54,487 nt of DNA from NCBI GenBank assembly GCA_025499625.1, contig JAFMVD010000042.1, forward strand, positions 1 through 54,487, read 5' to 3'. Positions within the stretch are counted from its first letter, which is position 1. Every line of letters starts with the position of its first letter. Source of the stretch: Carboxylicivirga fragile. GTDB lineage: Bacteria; Bacteroidota; Bacteroidia; Bacteroidales; Marinilabiliaceae. Under the pieces are notes generated by a model that was given only the letters and a program-made list of their open reading frames with translations, searched no databases and was not told where the DNA came from. Position numbers and translations under genes: made by a program. Positions 8,134-54,487 of the stretch are shown piece after piece.

Positions 8134-9546
8134 TTACTTTCCGATACAAAAGTTCTTAAAGATATTGCCCAATACCTCGTCAGTGTTGATGTGACCAGTT
8201 ATCTCGCCTAGAAAATGTAAAACCTCACGTATATCTTGTGATAGCAAATCGCCAGACAAGCCAGTTTGTAGACCATCACTTACGCGCAAGATAGCTTCAT
8301 GCGATTTTGAAAGGGCTTCGTAGTGACGGGCATTGGTAACAATTACTTCATCGTTATCTAAAGCGGTTAGGTTAACTGTTTTAAGTAATTCCGATGTGAG
8401 CGTGTCAATGTTGCTTTGCATTTTCGCCGAAATGGGTACAAGAGAGTCAATGCCATTTAGTTCTCGAAATGCAGCTTGATCGAAACGGTTTTCGACCACG
8501 ATATCTTCTAATAAATCGGTTTTATTAATGACCACGATCAACTGTTGTTGCCCTTCCGTTAGTCGACTCTTAACATTGGTGATGGCCTCATGTATTTTTT
8601 CATCCGGATCGTTCACATCCAACATTAATAAAACAATATTGGCTTTGTCAATTTTACTATAAGTACGTTCAATACCTAGATTCTCAATTTTATCTTTGGT
8701 GGTACGAATACCGGCTGTGTCAATAAAACGGAATGTGATGCCTTCTATGTTAATGGTATCTTCAATTACATCGCGTGTAGTACCATGTATGTCTGATACT
8801 ATGGCTCTGTCTTCTTGCAATAGCGTATTGAGTAAAGTTGACTTGCCTGCATTGGTATGTCCAACAATAGCTACTGGAATACCGTTTTTTATGGCGTTGC
8901 CCAAGGAAAACGACTGACACAATTTATTAATTAAGGATTCAATGTTATTGACAAGCTCACTCAGTTCTGATCGGTCAGCAAATTCAACATCTTCTTCACT
9001 AAAATCGAGTTCGAGCTCAATAAGGGTGATGAAGTTTAACAGTTGCGCACGTAGATTGATTAATTCGTTAGAGAAACCACCACGCATTTGTTGCAGTGCA
9101 ACACGTCTTGCTGCTTCACTTTGAGAGGCAATTAAGTCAGCCACAGCTTCAGCCTGCGACAAATCCATTTTGCCGCTTAGGAATGCACGCTGAGTAAATT
9201 CGCCAGGAGTGGCGAGGCGTGCTCCTTTTTTAATAAGCAATTGCAAAATCTGCTGCTGTATATAGGGCGAACCGTGACAAGCTATTTCGGCAATGTCTTC
9301 GCCTGTAAAGGAGTGAGGCGCTTTAAAAATACTTATTAGTACTTCATCAATATTTGTTTCTTCATTGACAATAGAGCCAAAATGCACCGTGTTAGCTTTC
9401 TGATCAGCTAGAATTTTATTCTTCGAAGCTGGTTCAAAAATTGATTGACAAATTGAAAAAGATTCAGCTCCAGATAAACGGATGACAGCAATGGCTCCCA
9501 TGCCTTGAGCAGTTGATATGGCACAAATTGTATCGTTAAATTGCAT
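8134..9546 (-). CDS. mnmE: tRNA modification GTPase MnmE
   Basis: MnmE works with MnmG to build the carboxymethylaminomethyl group on U34 of certain tRNAs. The 470-residue length is normal for the family. The N-terminal formyl-THF-binding domain has the typical start (DTICAISTAQGMGAIAVIRL) and the ACHGSPYI motif near residue 90. The G domain carries GHTNAGKST (G1, about residue 228), DIHGTTRD (G2), DTAGIR (G3) and NKTD (G4). The protein ends with FCIGK, whose Cys is the conserved catalytic residue. It is the only housekeeping tRNA gene product in this stretch. It diverges from the TPR histidine kinase gene at 9657 with a 110-bp intergenic region between them. No mnmG is in the window. Confidence 0.97.
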   Translation of the reverse strand: MQFNDTICAISTAQGMGAIAVIRLSGAESFSICQSIFEPASKNKILADQKANTVHFGSIVNEETNIDEVLISIFKAPHSFTGEDIAEIACHGSPYIQQQILQLLIKKGARLATPGEFTQRAFLSGKMDLSQAEAVADLIASQSEAARRVALQQMRGGFSNELINLRAQLLNFITLIELELDFSEEDVEFADRSELSELVNNIESLINKLCQSFSLGNAIKNGIPVAIVGHTNAGKSTLLNTLLQEDRAIVSDIHGTTRDVIEDTINIEGITFRFIDTAGIRTTKDKIENLGIERTYSKIDKANIVLLMLDVNDPDEKIHEAITNVKSRLTEGQQQLIVVINKTDLLEDIVVENRFDQAAFRELNGIDSLVPISAKMQSNIDTLTSELLKTVNLTALDNDEVIVTNARHYEALSKSHEAILRVSDGLQTGLSGDLLSQDIREVLHFLGEITGHINTDEVLGNIFKNFCIGK

Positions 9547-16300: not shown

Positions 16301-19300
16301 GAACTACAGCAACTTTTAGTGTTGTTTTAAACTCAGTTCCAACAGCTGATGTCGTGTTGGATTTAGCATTATCAGTTGATGATTTAACGGAGGCAAATAT
16401 TGATGCTCTAGGAAATGAGCTTACTTTTGAAGTTGGTAACTGGAATGTTGCCCAGGTCGTAACTGTTACTGGACAAGATGATGTCATTATTGATGGTGAT
16501 CAAACTTTTGATATTGTTATTAGTATCAAATCTACCACTGATGTCAATTATAATGTTTTAGGAGCCCAAACTATAAGCGGAACTAATATTGATGATGATG
16601 AAGCTCCTGTTGCTAATGACGATACTGATTTAGTAGCAAATGAAACAAATGAGGATGTTCCTTTTATAATAAATGTACTTTCTAATGATACTGACGACAA
16701 GGATGCGCTTAACTTAGCTTCTGTTGACTTAGATCAGGTAACAGGTGGTGTACAGAATAGTATTACAAATGCATATGGTACGTGGAACGTTAGTAATATT
16801 GGTGTAGTTACTTTTACACCTTTACTTAACAGTAGTGGCGTGGCTACAATTAATTATACAGTAGCCGATACGGATGGGCTTGTTTCTAATGAAGCTACCT
16901 TGTCGGTAAATGTTGTGGCTATCAACGACGCACCTGTTGCTGTTAATGATCTTAATAATTCTACAAACGAGGATACATCTTTAAATGATATTGTGATAGC
17001 AGATAATGATACCGATGTTGATGGTTCGGTTCAGGCTTCCACCATCATTTTAATCGATCCGGGCAATGTGACCAATACCGGTAATTCTTCAACTCCACTT
17101 ATAATTGCTGGCGTTGGTGTTTACTCTGTTGATGCTTCAGGAAATGTGGATTTTGTTCCAGCATTGAATTATAATGGACCTGCTAATGTCAATTATACTA
17201 TAGATGATGATATGGGTGCTACATCTAATGTTGCAACTGTTTTTATTACTGTGGATTCACAAAATGACGAACCTACTGCTGTTGACGATACAGGTAATAG
17301 TACCAATGAAGATAATCCGATTACGGTTGTAACCATTAATAGTAATGATACGGATGTTGACGGAAATGTTGTAGCAACAAGTATTGTATTAATAGACCCT
17401 TCGGATGCTGGTAACACAGCTAATAGTGGTGCTGATTTAGTAATTTCAGGTGTGGGAACTTATAGGGCGGATGTTATCGGTAATGTTTCATTTACTCCGG
17501 TAGCAAACTACAATGGTGCTGCCAATGTAAACTATACAATCCTGGATAATAGTGGCGCTATTTCAAATGTAGCAACAGTATATATAAATGTTGTGGCTCA
17601 GAACGATGCTCCAGTTGTGACAAATCCTGTTAATGTAATTACAGCAGAAGATACGCCATATACTTTTACTGGTGCTTTCCTGATAAGTGTAGCTGATGTT
17701 GATGGAGATGATCAAACAGTTACCGTAACAGTAACTAATGGAGTTGCATCTTTATCACAAATTACAAACCTTGCTTTTACAACAGGTGATGGTGATGCTG
17801 ATGCAACAATGGTATTTTCAGGTACATTAGGTGATATTAATGCAGCTTTAAATAACATCGTTTATACGCCAACAGCGGATTACGATGGATTGGCATCATT
17901 AAGTATAAATACTTCTGACGGAACTGCCTCCGATGATGGTGCTGTAAGTATTACGGTAACACCAGGTAATGATGCCCCAGTTGCCGTTAACGATTTAAAT
18001 AATTCTGTTGATGAGGATAATCCAATAACGATTAATTTTATTGCAAGTAACGATACAGATGTTGATGGGTCAGTATTAGCTTCTACTATTGTTTTGATAG
18101 ATCCAAGCAATGGAACTAATACAGGTAATTCAAGTACACCACTAGTGATTTCTGGTGTTGGAACTTATACTATTAATGCGCTCGGTAATTTAACTTTTAC
18201 ACCAGTACAAGATTTTAACGGATCAGCAAATGTATTTTATACAATTGATGACGATGGAGGTTTGACATCTAATGTTGCAACAGTGCAGATTACTGTTGAT
18301 CCGGTTAACGATGCCCCAGTAGCCGTTAATGATGTATTAATTGCTGATGAGGACAATGATGCGACTGTTAACGTAACAACAAATGATACGGATGTTGATG
18401 GAACAGTTGATGTAACAACTGTCGATCTTGATCCATCTACCGGAGGTATTCAAACTACCTTTGCAAGCACCAATGGTGATTGGAGTGTAGATAATACCGG
18501 ATTAGTGACCTTTACTCCTGATGCCAATTGGTTTGGAGATGAAGTAATCAACTATACAGTTAACGATAATGATGGAACCGTTTCAAACAGTGCAACTATA
18601 ACAGCTACCATTAATGACATTAACGATGCCCCAGTAGCCGTTAATGATGTATTAAGTGCTGATGAGGACAATGCCGCGACTGTTAACGTAACAACAAATG
18701 ATACGGATGTTGATGGAACAGTTGATGTAACAACAGTCGATCTTGATCCTTCTACCGGAGGTATTCAAACTACCTTTGCAAGCACCAATGGTGACTGGAG
18801 TGTAGATAATACCGGATTAGTGACCTTTACTCCTGATGCCAACTGGTTTGGTGTTGAGGTAATCAACTATACGGTTAACGATAACAATGGAACTGTTTCA
18901 AACAGTGCAACCATCACAGCTACCATTAATGACATTAACGATGCACCAGTGGCTGTTAATGATGTGTTAAGTGCTGATGAGGACAATATTGCGACTGTTA
19001 ATGTAACAACAAATGATACGGATGTTGATGGAACAGTTGATGTAACAACAGTCGATCTTGATCCATCTACCGGAGGTATTCAAACTACCTTTGCAAGCAG
19101 CAATGGTGACTGGAGTGTAGATAATACCGGCTTAGTGACCTTTACTCCTGATGCCAACTGGTTTGGAGATGAAGTAATCAACTATACAGTTAACGATAAC
19201 AATGGAACCGTTTCAAACAGTGCAACTATCACAGCTACCATTAATGACATTAACGATGCACCAGTAGCCGTTAATGATGTATTAAGTGCTGATGAAGATA

Positions 19301-22300
19301 ACAATGCAACAGTTAATGTTACGACTAACGATACAGATGCTGATGGTACAATTGTAGTAAGTACAGTTGATTTGGATCCATCTACCGGAGGTATTCAAAC
19401 TACCTTTGCAAGTACCAATGGTGATTGGAGTGTAGATAATACCGGATTAGTGACCTTTACTCCTGATGCCAACTGGTTTGGTGTTGAGGTAATCAACTAT
19501 ACGGTTAACGATAATGATGGAACACCATCTAATAGTGCTACTATTACAGCTACTATTAATGATATCAATGATGCACCAGTTGCAGTCAACGATGTATTAA
19601 GTGCTGATGAGGACAATGTTGCGACCGTTAACGTAACAACAAATGATACGGATGTTGATGGAACAGTTGATTTAACAACAGTCGATCTTGATCCATCTAC
19701 CGGAGGTATTCAAACTACCTTTGCAAGCAGCAATGGTGACTGGAGTGTAGATAATACCGGATTAGTGACCTTTACTCCTGATGCCAATTGGTTTGGAGAT
19801 GAGATAATCAACTATACGGTTAATGATAATGATGGAACTGTTTCAAACAGTGCAACTATCACAGCTACTATTAATGACATTAACGATGCACCAGTAGCCG
19901 TTAATGATGTATTAAGTGCTGATGAGGACAATGCTGCGACTGTTAACGTAACAACAAATGATACGGATGTTGATGGAACAGTTGATGTAACAACAGTCGA
20001 TCTTGATCCATCCACCGGAGGTATTCAAACTACCTTTGCAAGCACCAATGGTGACTGGAGTGTAGATAATACCGGATTAGTAACATTTACTCCTGATGCC
20101 AACTGGTTTGGAGTTGAAGTAATTAACTATACGGTTAACGATAATGATGGAACTGGTTCAAACAGTGCAACCATTACGGCTACTATTAATACAATTAATG
20201 ATGTGCCAGTTGCACAAGATGATGTGTACAGTGTAGCCCAAGGTCAAACAATCAATATCAATGCTGCCTCTGGTGTACTTGATAATGATAGCGATATTGA
20301 AAATGATCCTATAACAGCCATATTGGTGGATGATGTTTCTAATGGCACATTGACATTGAATGCAGATGGTTCGTTTGATTATTCACATGATGGAACTGTT
20401 ACTTATACCGACAGTTTTACTTACAAAGTAAATGATGGAACGGAAGATGGTAACACTGTTACAGTAACCATTAATATACTTGGAGTCAATAATATTCCTG
20501 TCGGTAATAATGATGTCTATTCGGTTAGTGAAGGTGGTACATTAACTATTGATGCTACTTCAGGCGTATTAGATAATGATACTGATGGTGATGGAGACGC
20601 GCTTAATGCCATTTTTGTTGGTGATGTTTCTAATGGTACATTGACATTAAATGCGGATGGTTCATTTATTTATACTCATGATGGCTCAGAGACAACAAGT
20701 GATAGTTTCACTTATAGGCCTAATGATAGTAAGCAAACGGGTAATTTGACTACAGTTACAATAACTGTTACACCCGTTAATGATACACCTGTTGCAGTAA
20801 GTGATGTGGCTTCAGTTGATGAAGATGGTGTATTGAATGGGACTACTGTATTAGGTAACGATAGTGACCCTGAAGGTGATGATCTTACGGTCAACACTAC
20901 ACCTGTTACAGATGTAACAAACGGTACTTTAGTTATCAACCCAGATGGAAGCTATACTTATACCCCAGATGCTGATTTTAATGGTACTGATTCATTTGAG
21001 TACGAAGTATGCGATGATGGTACACCATCGGCATGTGCAAGAGCTACAGTAACCATAACAGTAAATGCGGTAAACGATGCACCAGTTGCAGTAAACGATG
21101 TTGCATCAGTAGATGAAGACGGTGTATTGAATGGAACAACTGTACTAGCTAACGATAGTGACCCTGAAGGCGATAATCTCACGATTAACACAACACCAGT
21201 AACAGATGTTACAAACGGTACCTTGGTTATTAATCCGGATGGAAGTTATACATATACACCAGATGCTGGATTCAGCGGAAACGATTCATTTGAATACGAA
21301 GTATGCGACGATGGGACTCCATCTTTATGTACTAAAGCAACTGTTAGTATTACAGTTAATTCTGATAACGATTCTCCTGTTGCTGTCAGCGATGTGGCTT
21401 CAGTTGATGAAGACGGTGTATTGAATGGAACAACTGTATTAGAAAACGATAGTGATCCAGAAGGTGATAACCTGACTGTTAACACAACACCGATAACAGA
21501 TGTTAGTAATGGTACATTAGTTATTAATATTGATGGAACGTATACTTATACGCCTGATGCTAATTTCAATGGTTCTGATTCATTCGAATACGAAGTATGC
21601 GACGATGGCACACCATCGGCATGTGCAAGAGCTACAGTAACTATTACTGTTAATGCAGTAAACGATGCACCAGTTGCTGTCAACGATGTTGCATCAGTAG
21701 ATGAAGACGGCGTATTGAATGGAACAACTGTACTAGGAAACGATAGTGACCCGGAAGACGATAAGCTCACGATTAACACAACACCAGTAACAGATGTTGC
21801 GAATGGTACATTGGTGATTAACCCAGATGGAAGCTATATATATACGCCAGATGCTGATTTCAATGGTGATGATTCATTTGAGTATGAGATTTGCGATGAT
21901 GGCACGCCATCGTTATGTACAAAGGCTACGGTAAATATCACGGTAAATTCTGTTAACGATGCACCAGTAGCAGTAAATGATATGGCTTCAGTTGATGCAG
22001 ATCAGGTTCTAAACGGCTCATCTTTATTAGCTAATGATAGTGATCCGGATGGAGATAACTTGCTTATTAATACAACTCCGCTTGTTAATGTAAGTAATGG
22101 TACATTAGTTATTGATACCGATGGCACCTACACTTATACACCTAATGCGGGATATGTCGGATCAGATAGCTTCGAATACGAGGTATGTGACGATGGTACT
22201 CCATCGGCTTGTTCAAGAGCTACTGTTAGCATAACAGTTCATGATGTTAATGCTGCACCGATAGCTGTAGACGATGAAGCCACAACAGGTAGAAATGAAA

Positions 22301-49918: not shown

Positions 49919-50791
49919 ATGGGATTAAAAGTTATTGTTCTTGCTAAGCAAGTTCCTGATACCCGAAATGTTGGCAAGGATGCCATGAAAGCTGACGGAA
50001 CGGTGAACCGTGCGGCATTGCCTGCCATCTTCAATCCTGAGGATTTAAATGCTCTTGAGCAAGCGCTCAGATTGAAAGATAGATACCCTGGAACCGAAGT
50101 TACTATATTAACAATGGGACCAGGACGTGCAGCTGATATTATTAGAGAAGGTTTGTTCAGAGGAGCCGACGATGGTTATTTGTTAACCGACCGTGCGTTT
50201 GCCGGATCTGATACCTTAGCTACTTCTTATGCTATTTCGTGTGCCATTAAAAAGATGAATGGGGTTGATTTAATTATTGCTGGTCGTCAGGCCATTGATG
50301 GTGATACTGCCCAGGTTGGACCTCAGGTTGCCGAGAAATTAGGTTTGCCTCAGGTTACTTATGCCGAAGAGGTATTGTCAGTAGACAAAGATAAGATGGT
50401 TATTAAGCGTCGTTTGGAGCGTGGAGTAGAAACAGTTGAGATGCCATTGCCTGGTGTTATTACTGTTAATGCCAGTGCACCGGATTGTCGCCCGCGTAAT
50501 GCTAAATTAACTATGAAATTTAAGCATGCGAAAACCATAACAGAACGCCAAGGCGAAGCCGAAGATTATATCGACATGACAGCTGATCGTCCATATCTTA
50601 ACATTGCAGAAATGAGTGTTAATGATATTGATTCGGATGCTAAATGGTTAGGTTTAACAGGTTCTCCTACTAAAGTGAAGAAAATTGAGAACGTTGTGTT
50701 CCAGGCGAAAGAGTCGAAACGCTTAACGCCTTCCGATGAAGAGATTGATGAGTTAATGAAAGACTTAATTGCAAATCACACAATCGGATAA
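49919..50791 (+). CDS. etfB: Electron transfer flavoprotein, beta subunit
   Basis: A 290-residue ETF beta subunit. I prefer the ATG at 49919 to the earlier start in the ORF (TTG at 49853), because the family start MGLKVIVLAKQVPDT is immediately there. Other typical parts are the adenine-nucleotide motif AGRQAIDGDTAQVGPQ and LPGVITVNASAPDCRPRN. With EtfA it takes electrons from acyl-CoA dehydrogenases, one of which is encoded downstream. The three genes form one operon. Confidence 0.96.
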   Translation: MGLKVIVLAKQVPDTRNVGKDAMKADGTVNRAALPAIFNPEDLNALEQALRLKDRYPGTEVTILTMGPGRAADIIREGLFRGADDGYLLTDRAFAGSDTLATSYAISCAIKKMNGVDLIIAGRQAIDGDTAQVGPQVAEKLGLPQVTYAEEVLSVDKDKMVIKRRLERGVETVEMPLPGVITVNASAPDCRPRNAKLTMKFKHAKTITERQGEAEDYIDMTADRPYLNIAEMSVNDIDSDAKWLGLTGSPTKVKKIENVVFQAKESKRLTPSDEEIDELMKDLIANHTIG

Positions 50792-50853
50792 TTGTTGACA
50801 ACAAGTTGGTTTGATAACATCAAATCACATGTCGTAATCTTAAATCTTATACA

Positions 50854-51873
50854 ATGAACAGCATATTTGTAATTTGCGAAATAGAGGAGGGAAAAGTTGC
50901 CGACGTTAGTCTGGAATTAATGACTAAAGGACGTTCCCTTGCCAATGAATTAAAGTGTAAGTTAGAAGCTTTGGTTCTTGGACATAACCTTAAAGGAGTT
51001 GAAAAAGAGTTATACCCTTTTGGTGCCGATGTGGTACATATTGGTGATGACGCTCGTTTAGATCCGTATACAACATTGCCACATACTTCGGTAATTGTTG
51101 AATTGTTTGAAAAAGAACAACCACAAATAGCATTATTAGGAGCTTCAACATTTGGTCGCGATTTGGGGCCACGTGTTTCCTCAGCTCTTCAAAGTGGTTT
51201 GACTGCCGATTGTACTTCTTTGGTAATTGGTGATCACGAGGATAAAAAAGCGAAAAAAGAATATAAAGACTTATTATACCAGATTCGTCCTGCGTTTGGT
51301 GGTAATATTGTTGCTACCATCATTAACCCTGATTGTCGCCCACAGATGGCTACAGTACGTGAAGGGGTAATGAAGAAGGAAGTGTACGATGCCGCTTATA
51401 AAGGAAAAGTTAATAAGTTGGACATTGACAAAATGTTAAAACCTGAAGATTTGGTGGTGAAAGTTATCGAACGCCACATGGAAAAATCGAAGGTTAATAT
51501 TAAAAATTCTTCAATTATTGTAGCTGGTGGTTACGGTGTTGGTTCAAAAGAGAATTTTGCTCAGTTGGAAGAATTGGCGCATGTATTGGGTGGTGAAGTT
51601 GGTGCTTCACGTGCAGCAGTTGATGCTGGATATGCCAGTCATGAACGTCAGATTGGACAAACAGGAGTAACGGTTCGACCTAAGTTATACATTGCTTGTG
51701 GTATTTCTGGTCAGATTCAGCATACAGCAGGTATGGAAGAGTCGGCTATGATTATTGCCATTAATAATGATCCGAATGCACCAATTAATAAAATTGCCGA
51801 TTATGTAATAACTGGTGATTTGGGTGCTGTTGTACCTAAGTTGATTAAGTTCTATAAAAAGAACACTAAATAG
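50854..51873 (+). CDS. etfA: Electron transfer flavoprotein, alpha subunit
   Basis: A 339-residue ETF alpha subunit. The C-terminal FAD domain has VAGGYGVGSKENF, GASRAAVDAGY, and the signature LYIACGISGQIQHTAGME, followed by INNDPNAPINKIADY. The FAD-binding residues appear intact. It starts 62 bp after etfB and is followed after 129 bp by acyl-CoA dehydrogenase. The heterodimer passes electrons from that dehydrogenase to the membrane quinone pool or, in bifurcating types, to ferredoxin; the type cannot be told for certain by eye. Confidence 0.97.
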   Translation: MNSIFVICEIEEGKVADVSLELMTKGRSLANELKCKLEALVLGHNLKGVEKELYPFGADVVHIGDDARLDPYTTLPHTSVIVELFEKEQPQIALLGASTFGRDLGPRVSSALQSGLTADCTSLVIGDHEDKKAKKEYKDLLYQIRPAFGGNIVATIINPDCRPQMATVREGVMKKEVYDAAYKGKVNKLDIDKMLKPEDLVVKVIERHMEKSKVNIKNSSIIVAGGYGVGSKENFAQLEELAHVLGGEVGASRAAVDAGYASHERQIGQTGVTVRPKLYIACGISGQIQHTAGMEESAMIIAINNDPNAPINKIADYVITGDLGAVVPKLIKFYKKNTK

Positions 51874-52002
51874 ATTAGTAGACAACGAGATGATAGACAT
51901 GCTGAATAAAGTCTAATCGTCTAACATCTAAAAATCTATTATCTAATTAAATAAATGTTGGATCAGAATTCCGAGTGATTGGAACTCAAAATATAAAACA
52001 AA

Positions 52003-53715
52003 ATGGCAAATTTTTTCACAGATAACCCGGATTTAAAGTTCCACCTGGAGCATCCGTTAATGAAAAAGATTGTGGCTCTTAAAGAACGCAATTTTGCTGA
52101 TAAAGATAAATTCGATTACGCACCCATGGACTTTGAGGATGCCATGGATAGCTACGAAAAAACCTTAGACATTGTAGGTGAGATTTGTGGTGACATAGTA
52201 GCACCAAACGCCGAAAGTGTGGATCAGGAAGGTCCAAAGATTGTTAATAACGAAGTGGTTTATGCCAAAGGAACTCAAGAGAACCTTGACGCCTTGGTGA
52301 AAGCTGGTTTGATGGGCATAACATTACCTCGTAAATACGATGGGTTGAACTTCCCTATTGTACCTTACATCATGGCTGCTGATATTGTATCACGTGCCGA
52401 TGCTGGTTTTGTTAACATTTGGGGCTTACAGGATTGTGCCGAAACAATCAATGAATTCGCTGATGATGACCAGAAAGAGCGCTATTTAAAACGTGTTTCG
52501 CATGGTGAGACAATGGCTATGGATTTAACTGAGCCGGATGCTGGTTCAGACTTGCAAGCTGTTCAGTTAAAAGCTGAATTGAAAGATGGCAAGTGGGTAC
52601 TTAATGGTGTGAAACGTTTTATCACCAATGGTGATGGACATATTGCATTAGTGTTGGCTCGTTCTGAGGAAGGTACTCAAGATGGACGTGGTTTATCTAT
52701 GTTTATCTACGACCGTAACGATAAAGCAGTTATTGTACGTCGTTTAGAGAATAAAATGGGTATCAAAGGTTCTCCTACCTGTGAGTTAGTGTTTAAGGAT
52801 GCTCCGGCTGAATTGGTTGGTTCACGTAAAATGGGATTGATCAAGTATGTGATGGCCTTAATGAACGGTGCTCGTTTGGGTATCGGTGCTCAATCTGTTG
52901 GTGTTTCTGAATCGGCTTATCGCGAAGCTTTGGCTTATGCTAAGGAACGTGAGCAGTTTGGCAAACCTATTATACAGTTCCCTGCTGTATATGAGATTTT
53001 GGCAACAATGAAAGCTAAGCTTGATGCGTCTCGTACTTTATTGTACGAAACATCTCGTTACGTTGATATTTACAAAACATACATGCACATTTCTGAAGAG
53101 CGTAAACTTGAAAAAGAAGAGCGTCAGGAAATGAAACGTTACCAAAAGTTGGCTGATTATTTCACGCCACTGTTGAAAGGTATTACCAGTGAGTACAGTA
53201 ACCAATTGGCCTACGATGCAGTTCAGGTTCATGGAGGTTCAGGATTCATGAAAGATTATCCGGTTGAGCGTATTTATCGCGATGCTCGTATTACATCTAT
53301 TTATGAAGGAACAACTCAGCTGCAAGTTGTAGCGGCCATTCGTGGTGTAACTACTGGTGGTTTGTTAGATCGTATTCGTGAATTCGAAGTAATGGATCTT
53401 AAGCCTGAACTACATGGATATCGTCGTACCTTAATTGGTATGACCGATGAGTACGAAAGAGCTGTTAAAGCTGTAGTTGACGTTAAGGACACTGAGTACT
53501 TGGATTTTCAAGCACGTCGTTTAGTTGAAATGGCAGGTAACATCGTTATGGGTTACTTATTGTTATTAGATACCCAACGTGATGACAAATTCAGAGGATC
53601 AACAGATATTATCATTAAACGAGGAAAAGCAGAAAACCATTCAAAAGCTGGTTTCATCTTTAACTCAACTATCGATGATTTAGGATTCTATAAGCCTGGG
53701 TTAGAAGAAGCATAA
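52003..53715 (+). CDS. Acyl-CoA dehydrogenase
   Basis: A 570-residue flavin dehydrogenase, oxidising acyl-CoA to enoyl-CoA. The conserved DLTEPDAGSDLQAVQ motif lies at about 175, the catalytic Glu is likely Glu435 in IYEGTTQLQ, and VQVHGGSGFMKDYPVERIYR is the second family signature. It is longer than the classical 380-residue enzymes: an N-terminal extension of about 60 residues and a C-terminal one of about 125, as in the AcdA-like C-terminal-extended group common in Bacteroidota. Its electron acceptor is likely the ETF encoded upstream. The chain-length preference is unknown. Confidence 0.96.
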   Translation: MANFFTDNPDLKFHLEHPLMKKIVALKERNFADKDKFDYAPMDFEDAMDSYEKTLDIVGEICGDIVAPNAESVDQEGPKIVNNEVVYAKGTQENLDALVKAGLMGITLPRKYDGLNFPIVPYIMAADIVSRADAGFVNIWGLQDCAETINEFADDDQKERYLKRVSHGETMAMDLTEPDAGSDLQAVQLKAELKDGKWVLNGVKRFITNGDGHIALVLARSEEGTQDGRGLSMFIYDRNDKAVIVRRLENKMGIKGSPTCELVFKDAPAELVGSRKMGLIKYVMALMNGARLGIGAQSVGVSESAYREALAYAKEREQFGKPIIQFPAVYEILATMKAKLDASRTLLYETSRYVDIYKTYMHISEERKLEKEERQEMKRYQKLADYFTPLLKGITSEYSNQLAYDAVQVHGGSGFMKDYPVERIYRDARITSIYEGTTQLQVVAAIRGVTTGGLLDRIREFEVMDLKPELHGYRRTLIGMTDEYERAVKAVVDVKDTEYLDFQARRLVEMAGNIVMGYLLLLDTQRDDKFRGSTDIIIKRGKAENHSKAGFIFNSTIDDLGFYKPGLEEA

Positions 53716-53737
53716 GAGCAATATAACTGATTATAAA

Positions 53738-53769
53738 AAAAAGGCCATTCTGTGAGGGATGGCCTTTTT
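53738..53769 (+). terminator. Rho-independent terminator of the etf/dehydrogenase operon
   Basis: GGCCAT (53743-53748) pairs with ATGGCC (53759-53764), flanked by an A-run before and a T-run after. It is the end of the operon and is A-rich on the other side, so may also act in the reverse direction. Confidence 0.92.
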
Positions 53770-53787
53770 AGTTGGTAGCACTAAGGG

Positions 53788-54039
53788 TTACATATGCTTC
53801 TGTATCGCTTGTGTAGGGTGCTGGCCTTGTTGCATACCGTGCTGTATACCTTACATACGCTTCTGGTCTCCTTACATATGCAACTATCAAGCTTAAATAC
53901 TTCGTTGCTTCTATTGGTTGTCGTTTTGTAAACCTTACATACGCAGCTATATGCTATGCATTAAGCCCCAATACTGATACATACGATTCTGTTGATTATA
54001 CACATGGTGCTATTTTTCTTACATGCCATGCCGACTGGA
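53788..54039. repeat. 12-unit degenerate tandem array, exact 21-bp period
   Basis: Units start at 53788 and then every 21 bp to 54019 with no insertion or deletion. The first 15 positions share the core TTACATACGCTKCTG; the last six are mostly variable. Conservation by column: T at position 2 in all 12 units, T at 6 in 11, A at 5 in 10, C at 13 in 10, T at 14 in 10; position 3 is A in eight and G in four. All frames checked on both strands contain stops, so it is not a coding repeat in its present form. The array lies behind the operon terminator and about 280 bp before a lipoprotein gene. The period equals two DNA turns, which would place every core on one face of the helix. I know no family for it. 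Confidence 0.88.
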
Positions 54040-54316
54040 CTGCTTAGTAATTAACCTGAGATGCTAATAGTCTACATTAGTTTGCAATTTTATCACATTT
54101 CACATCCAGTTATTTGTACTGTTAATAATGAAGGTGAAATTTTGTTTATTCGTCAGTAAAATATATCGGTTCACATGGTAATTTGCCGTATTTATCATGT
54201 TAGACTAAAATTATTATCTAAAAACATGTTACGTTTTCGCGTTTCTGCAATTAACTGGTAGTGTTTAATTGGGAAGATTTTTTTACATAAAAAATATTGA
54301 ATTAAATAATTAAAAA
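54040..54316 (+). other. 277-bp AT-rich region before the lipoprotein gene
   Basis: No gene is seen; the longest ATG frame found (54130) has 17 codons. The region is AT-rich and probably holds the promoter of the gene at 54317, but no clear -7/-33 pair stands out. Confidence 0.5.
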
Positions 54317-54487
54317 ATGAAACAAAACCAAACCCTGATTACCCTGTTAGCAGTCTTGCTATTGTTTGCGGGGTGTTGTAAGGATGATGAAGCGTCGCCA
54401 CCTTACAACGTACTGAATGGGCGCAGTACAGCTGTTTTTAACCCCGACAAAAATTACGGAACAGTTAGCGACATTGATGGCAATGTA
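54317..54487 (+). CDS. FISUMP-domain lipoprotein, 3' end outside the window
   Basis: Fifty-seven codons are visible, open to the last base. The first part is a lipoprotein signal with lipobox FAGC (Cys19) and a KDDE stretch after it, typical for a surface-exposed lipoprotein of Bacteroidota. The visible mature part ends with NYGTVSDIDGNV, which fits the opening of the FISUMP (Fibrobacter succinogenes major paralogous) domain; in complete proteins this is followed by YKTV-IG-QWWMAENL. The domain function is unknown. The codons look more GC-rich than in the neighbouring genes. Confidence 0.65.
   Translation, partial: MKQNQTLITLLAVLLLFAGCCKDDEASPPYNVLNGRSTAVFNPDKNYGTVSDIDGNV

Follow-up and report, generated by a model that had tools for sequence, protein, structure and literature searches.

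A 21-bp repeat array of fixed spacing and changing sequence upstream of a protein family in Bacteroidota

Introduction

Direct repeats in helical phase, placed upstream of a gene whose small protein product binds them cooperatively, are familiar from plasmid iterons and from parC/tubC-type centromeres. In these systems the repeats are closely similar, are recognised by their sequence and stand next to replication or motor genes. BrickBuilt of Porphyromonas gingivalis is a minisatellite carried in a MITE, with a 23-nt unit of one consensus (PMC4596501). TIGR arrays alternate repeats of 8-12 nt with 9-nt spacers and are accompanied by a Nop-domain Tas protein and processed 36-nt RNAs (PMC12045711). 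Here we analyse a 21-bp array in a Carboxylicivirga genome, its relatives across Bacteroidota and a protein family encoded beside them, and we compare the pairing with these systems.

Results and discussion

The array in the window

The window, by which we mean the whole stretch of DNA analysed (54,487 nucleotides), is an entire contig, C77 of the genome G000, and its array is likewise called C77 (Table 1). All steps between the units of this 252-base array are 21 bp, and its self-match was 0.43 at a lag of 21, 0.49 at 42 and 0.48 at 63. The phase information came to 184.4 bits, compared with 49.5 (sd 9.3, maximum 84.2) in 2000 dinucleotide-preserving shuffles, which bears out the 12-unit, 21-bp array proposed by the first-pass annotation; the array is real and stands well above chance. 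On re-reading we also found the two conserved T that it describes, position 2 being T in all 12 units and position 6 in 11. Tandem Repeats Finder at a score of 30 did not report the array, because its units are too divergent for a standard repeat finder. A search of Rfam with window positions 50000-54487 and six loci gave no match above the gathering score.

Table 1 Features of the window around the array
Feature	Position	Strand	Basis
Upstream gene (context only)	52003..53715	+	ORF
Intrinsic-terminator-like hairpin and T run before the array, assigned to the upstream gene	53740..53769	+	seen in sequence
Array of 12 units x 21 bp, unit TTACATAY-N3/4-GCTG-N6	53788..54039	+	model matches E 1.8e-14, 4.0e-11, 4.0e-10
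37-bp leader motif (GTTACG...TGCAATTAAC), in relatives 5' of the 224-aa gene	54220..54256	+	blastn
FISUMP-type lipoprotein gene, 5' end (cut by the contig end)	54317..54487	+	open ORF and similarity

A terminator directly 5' of the array was considered as a general rule and rejected: it was seen in the first three arrays, but 57 arrays gave 7 such cases vs 5.2 in shuffles, which is no excess. Elsewhere in the window, at 18305-20210 and 20782-22001, there are long tandem repeats of 315 and 294 bp, apparently within a gene for a large repetitive protein.

Sister arrays and a linked gene in Carboxylicivirga

The search for related arrays that the first-pass annotation proposed was productive both in the window's own genome and in the genus. 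We used the core pattern in the former and a sequence-only model of 23 four-unit chunks across 14 Carboxylicivirga genomes, scoring the best 150 of 636-1009 candidates per genome. At least 15 arrays of the window type (TTACATAY, then GCTG about 4 bases on) occur in at least seven of the 14 genomes. Among the scored candidates, four lie in the window's genome (C77, C22, C68 and C44), three each in G007 and G005, two in G010 and one each in G011, G009 and G003; three further genomes yielded weak model matches only (E above 0.02). The statement that units follow one another without indels is correct for the window array and does not extend to the sister arrays, where a few other steps (22, 43, 39 and 18) are found.

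Two of the arrays in the window's genome, C22 and C68, are paralogous and can be aligned unit for unit across 14 units with 81% identity. The alignment contains 58 differences in 294 bases and zero indels, the flanks are unrelated and the homology ends ~15 bp beyond the array. The differences are not depleted in the conserved core columns, a pattern that fits relaxed constraint on one or both arrays. Two ~50-bp stretches that resemble each other (ATACCAWTTGTATTCC...; L046, about 8870-8926 and 9221-9300) lie on either side of the C22 array and are perhaps traces of array movement. Homogeneous 21-bp arrays with two alternating unit types were seen in G002:C1 near 2.90 and 2.84 Mb (L091 1875-2441 and L092 1866-2306); they have similar sequence at separate sites of one genome, no 224-aa gene adjacent to them, and can be described as young. 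More model matches lie near 2.92 Mb of the same contig, and the G002 genome also holds intergenic minisatellites of 23 bp (L202 735-1141), 42 bp (L205 2018-2464) and 40 bp (L212 15470-16034).

Open reading frames were examined around 17 array loci, namely the 15 genus arrays and two in G002. Downstream of six arrays (G000:C68, G010:C75, G010:C86, G005:C77, G005:C127 and G003:C30) we found a gene for a 224-aa protein, in the same orientation and 200-360 bp distant; 9 of the 15 window-type arrays of the genus stand without it. A FISUMP lipoprotein gene comes after the 224-aa gene in G010:C86 and G003:C30 and directly after the array in G007:C43, and the FISUMP copies of G003 and G007 match PF09603.

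Homologues of the 224-aa protein were present in 13/14 genomes of the genus (35 matches), 27/149 sampled from the order and 20/395 sampled from the phylum. Only weak matches below threshold were obtained in Pfam (12 homologues), NCBIfam (2), PHROGs (8) and PADLOC (8), as well as with the family profile against PDB sequences; several of the sub-threshold matches of the family are coiled-coil families, and no DNA-binding domain was recognised in it. The linked protein is unannotated, about 200-240 aa long and probably helical. Four longer homologues from the order (L132, L134, L135 and L138) bear a C-terminal CarboxypepD_reg-type domain, which is odd in that a signal peptide is not evident by eye. 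One 224-aa protein was used to query 72,556 plasmid and 50,697 phage records and matched none of them; a scan of viral contigs for the pattern, made with the close set A5, likewise yielded no relative.

In the window itself, the 224-aa gene left no trace in the tail (tblastn) or in the whole stretch (profile). The leader motif is 97% identical to the leader of G010:C75 and was matched by blastn in 11 of the 12 leaders compared. The lipoprotein ORF shares 33/53 residues with the G007 copy (L055; E 1e-22), which itself matches PF09603. We read the window copy as a solo array from which the 224-aa gene is missing, with the leader motif kept and the FISUMP lipoprotein gene now next to it. The gene upstream looks like an acyl-CoA dehydrogenase, a name taken from its sequence alone, and is found in 14/14 genomes of the genus. 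Beside it, no array of the window consensus was seen in the other 13 genomes among the scored candidates (best 150 of 636-1009 per genome); G008 has a different 21-bp array at this place (z 11.9) and G007 a weak signal (5.7).

Association with the protein family across Bacteroidota

To follow the pairing beyond the genus, we computed autocorrelation at lags of 12 to 61 bp over the 1.5 kb preceding the gene and recorded the top lag, for 30 genus, 30 order and 28 new phylum loci; two loci that had been retrieved twice are omitted from the order count. The top lag was 21 or 42 at 26/28 usable genus, 16/20 order and 19/27 phylum loci, and at 15 of the 18 phylum loci with a complete 5' end. Shuffled upstream sequences gave 0, 1 and 0 such positives for genus, order and phylum, and regions downstream of the gene gave 2/26, 1/18 and 0/25. 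A z above 6 was reached by 25 genus, 13 order and 20 phylum loci. By its top lag the array went undetected at 2/28 genus, 4/20 order and 8/27 phylum homologue loci; the misses include L157 and L164, with a top lag of 20 bp, and L178, where a 16-bp repeat outscores the 21-bp signal. Two loci (L174 and L223) contain N runs; L174 remains positive when N matches are excluded, and L223 is doubtful. Publicly named loci were positive in 15 of 16 cases, 12 of them identical to earlier loci and only four new, one of the new ones being Aequorivita vladivostokensis, from a different class.

A second, remote family, defined by the N-terminal part of the FN3-like protein L172, was positive at 7/10 loci (the doubtful L223 being among this family), compared with 1/10, very weakly, for control proteins that have only the FN3 part in common. 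A gene of this second family also occurs in the window's genome (L228, G000:C71, gene about 53558-54196), and the 21/42-bp array upstream of it is strong (z 14.8 and 16.4). For comparison, a 400-kb stretch from a complete relative contained 7 tandem regions; the top lag was 21 or 42 in three of these, and no homologue was detectable next to those three. The pairing of array and protein family extends more widely through Bacteroidota. It is apparently undescribed, since a literature search on such arrays, and on FISUMP names with repeats, listed nothing that matches by title and abstract, within a coverage that is sparse for subscription journals.

Spacing, sequence and helical rhythm

The sequence of the arrays changes quickly from locus to locus. 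Across 54 arrays, the similarity of array consensuses averaged 0.71 where the proteins were at least 70% identical, 0.37-0.38 at 35-70% and 0.28-0.29 below; the reverse-complement background was 0.27-0.29, and arrays of proteins less than 35% identical lie near it. In single cases the turnover is faster: L096 and L100 encode proteins that are 71% identical and have unrelated arrays, and L096 and L110, at 87% protein identity, have arrays that are weakly similar, which argues against a simple fixed code between protein and array. Given this speed, one of three options is to be expected: recognition co-evolves fast, another factor does the recognising, or it is periodic self-similarity that matters.

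While the sequence drifts, the spacing is kept, as the first-pass annotation had supposed from the window array, and the 21-bp period recurs with unrelated units upstream of one family across the phylum sample. The evidence for the period lies in the lag spectra. Steps were counted in 63 parsed arrays, a set that was selected for lag 21, permitted shifts of no more than 1 bp and contains two duplicates along with several weak arrays; of the 850 steps, 828 were 21, 13 were 20 and 9 were 22. These arrays have 9-28 units and lie 7-392 bp from the gene in 60 cases and 616-759 bp in three. For comparison with the zero indels of C22 and C68, the gene leaders, compared over 15 non-independent pairs, carry 23 gaps per 282 mismatches, and an intergenic pair carries 6 gaps per 43 mismatches; three other array pairs do carry gaps (2 per 35, 1 per 10 and 6 per 79). 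Indel avoidance is strong in the C22/C68 pair, and as a general property of the arrays it is not proven. To our knowledge, it is unusual for a protein-DNA array to hold its spacing constant while its sequence is free to change.

A length of 21 bp corresponds to two turns of the double helix, and conservation within the unit follows this geometry. We analysed information per column in 55 arrays (the 63 minus 8 that were duplicate, weak or N-bearing) and found a dominant second harmonic, at 10.5 bp, with a mean power of 0.278 vs 0.100 for permuted columns (z 14.5). None of 2000 permutations was as high, the harmonic was dominant in 29/55 arrays, and 50 less redundant arrays gave a z of 12.4. The first harmonic was elevated as well (0.150, z 4.1). 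In 11 register-aligned arrays of the window type, conservation profiles correlated at 0.72 in register, -0.43 at a shift of 5 and +0.30 at a shift of 11, and the window array correlated at 0.81 with the mean of its ten sister arrays. Each 21-bp unit is made up of conserved blocks of about 7 and 3-4 bp and variable stretches of 4-6 bp. Contact on a single face of B-DNA predicts such a rhythm of 10.5 bp, and the suggestion of the first-pass annotation that the cores face one side of the helix agrees with this harmonic. The C22/C68 differences, being no rarer in the conserved columns, speak against such contact. An alternation of A and B dimers was rejected as a rule, with an even-odd contrast of -0.003 over the 55 arrays and a strong contrast in L133 and L165 only.

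Proposed mechanism and alternatives

From the linkage to the gene, the fixed period, the 10.5-bp rhythm, the upstream position and the turnover of unit sequence, we propose a mechanism to which we give about even odds. Our main reading, with a probability of roughly 0.55, is that the array acts as a cis-acting element of double-stranded DNA within a two-part module, cooperatively covered and acting on the adjacent gene. The first part would be the 9-28 units of 21 bp, whose conserved blocks, lying about one helical turn apart, would present contacts on one helix face. The second would be the downstream gene, usually within 400 bp, whose product of about 200-240 aa is probably helical and in some relatives carries an additional C-terminal domain, for example CarboxypepD_reg. 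A protein may bind the array cooperatively on that face, upstream of the gene's promoter, and the bound array may control or organise the neighbouring gene. The simplest putative ligand would be the product of the linked gene or a dedicated partner. Weighing against this reading are the homologue loci at which no array was detected, the window-type arrays that stand without the gene, the 21/42-bp arrays in a relative's genome that have no homologue beside them, the array turnover between close homologues and the gaps in other array pairs. Between array and gene, the promoter-like pattern TTG-N18/21-TANNTTTG was seen 3 times vs 0.3 expected, and before the arrays -7 elements on the minus strand numbered 18 vs 8.4, both being small counts.

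Neutral turnover could produce part of the picture. A minisatellite hitchhiking with a multi-copy gene family would preserve its phase by duplicating whole units, and the cell would not read the array at all. Higher-order duplications of whole units do occur (5 units in L098, L102 and L121, 6 in L111, 2 in L133 and L165), solo arrays exist, and the C22/C68 differences are not depleted in the core. We nevertheless think this unlikely: turnover predicts neither a 10.5-bp rhythm of conservation nor the conservation of identical columns in independent arrays, and 21 bp recurs with unrelated sequences upstream of one protein family across classes. The first-pass annotation had called the array non-coding and had offered the remnant of a heptad-repeat gene as an alternative, 21 bp being 7 codons; the first view holds and the second, to which we assign a next to negligible chance, found no support. 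The frame TTR-CAT-AYN-NNN-CTR-NYR-NNC is largely open, as follows from the motif itself, but the window array has stop codons in it, the C22/C68 differences split 17/16/25 over codon positions, the 3-bp harmonic is 0.063 vs 0.10, and several arrays contain 1-bp steps.

A transcribed repeat RNA, also raised by the first-pass annotation, would in its most specific form be a guide-RNA array in the manner of TIGR-Tas, cut to short RNAs that the linked protein uses. The resemblance, superficial as it is, lies in units with two conserved and two variable segments, in repeats specific to the locus and in a single, probably helical protein alongside (PMC12045711), and -7 elements on the plus strand inside the arrays are in slight excess (15 vs 8.8, small counts). 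Against it, the variable stretches measure 4-6 nt and not the 9 nt of TIGR spacers, plus-strand -7 elements before the arrays are not in excess (5 vs 8.3, small counts), pairing scored 18307 vs 17934, 17066 and 20708 for control letter sets, no Pfam match above the cut-off, Nop included, was found among 12 homologues, and the window's genome gave no Nop match. RNA hairpins were rejected on similar grounds: column covariation of 16421 exceeded the 13487 (sd 237) of column-shuffled units, but non-pairing letter sets scored equally or higher, so the signal reflects shared ancestry of the units. We regard the guide-RNA explanation as quite improbable. In another explanation, intact double helices would recognise one another, unit with unit or with further copies, through contacts once per turn, as has been proposed for RIP in Neurospora (PMC4858203). 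The seemingly arbitrary yet self-similar unit sequence, with one block per helical turn, would suit such duplex recognition. We know of no such process in bacteria, however, and hold it to be very improbable. A related idea, for us a long shot, is that the module, throughout the phylum, addresses DNA by register and not by sequence, each locus having its own arbitrary 21-bp unit and selection keeping once-per-turn self-similarity, read by duplex-duplex recognition or by a protein that senses periodicity.

A protein family without Pfam assignment is now tied to a DNA element. The unusual design, fixed in spacing and free in sequence, poses the question whether the cell reads phase, sequence or both.

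Comparison with known systems

Our arrays resemble BrickBuilt in being spacer-free intergenic direct repeats of about two helix turns, present in many copies in the same phylum (PMC4596501). BrickBuilt has a leader and a tail with inverted repeats, and the available part of its description mentions no linked protein family, whereas the arrays described here have a period of 21 bp, locus-specific units and a linked gene. The window unit also differs from the 23-nt consensus as printed there (PMC4596501). With TIGR they share locus-specific tandem arrays, two repeat blocks with two variable stretches and a single effector gene beside them (PMC12045711). They differ from it in the 21-bp period, in the 10.5-bp DNA rhythm and in giving no Nop match by sequence, and the TIGR layout of repeat and spacer is not matched by their conserved blocks (about 7 bp and 3-4 bp) and short variable parts (4-6 bp). 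The likeness to iterons and centromeres lies in directly repeated units in helical phase beside a gene, with cognate binding here only putative. In contrast to those systems, the units within most of our arrays are about 35-70% identical and their sequence changes between close homologues; Pfam identified no replication initiator or partition motor among the ten array-flanking proteins scanned. BrickBuilt and TIGR arrays are each at variance with ours in a tested defining feature, and iteron and centromere arrays agree with them in the phased layout. We rate the protein-array module as a new kind.
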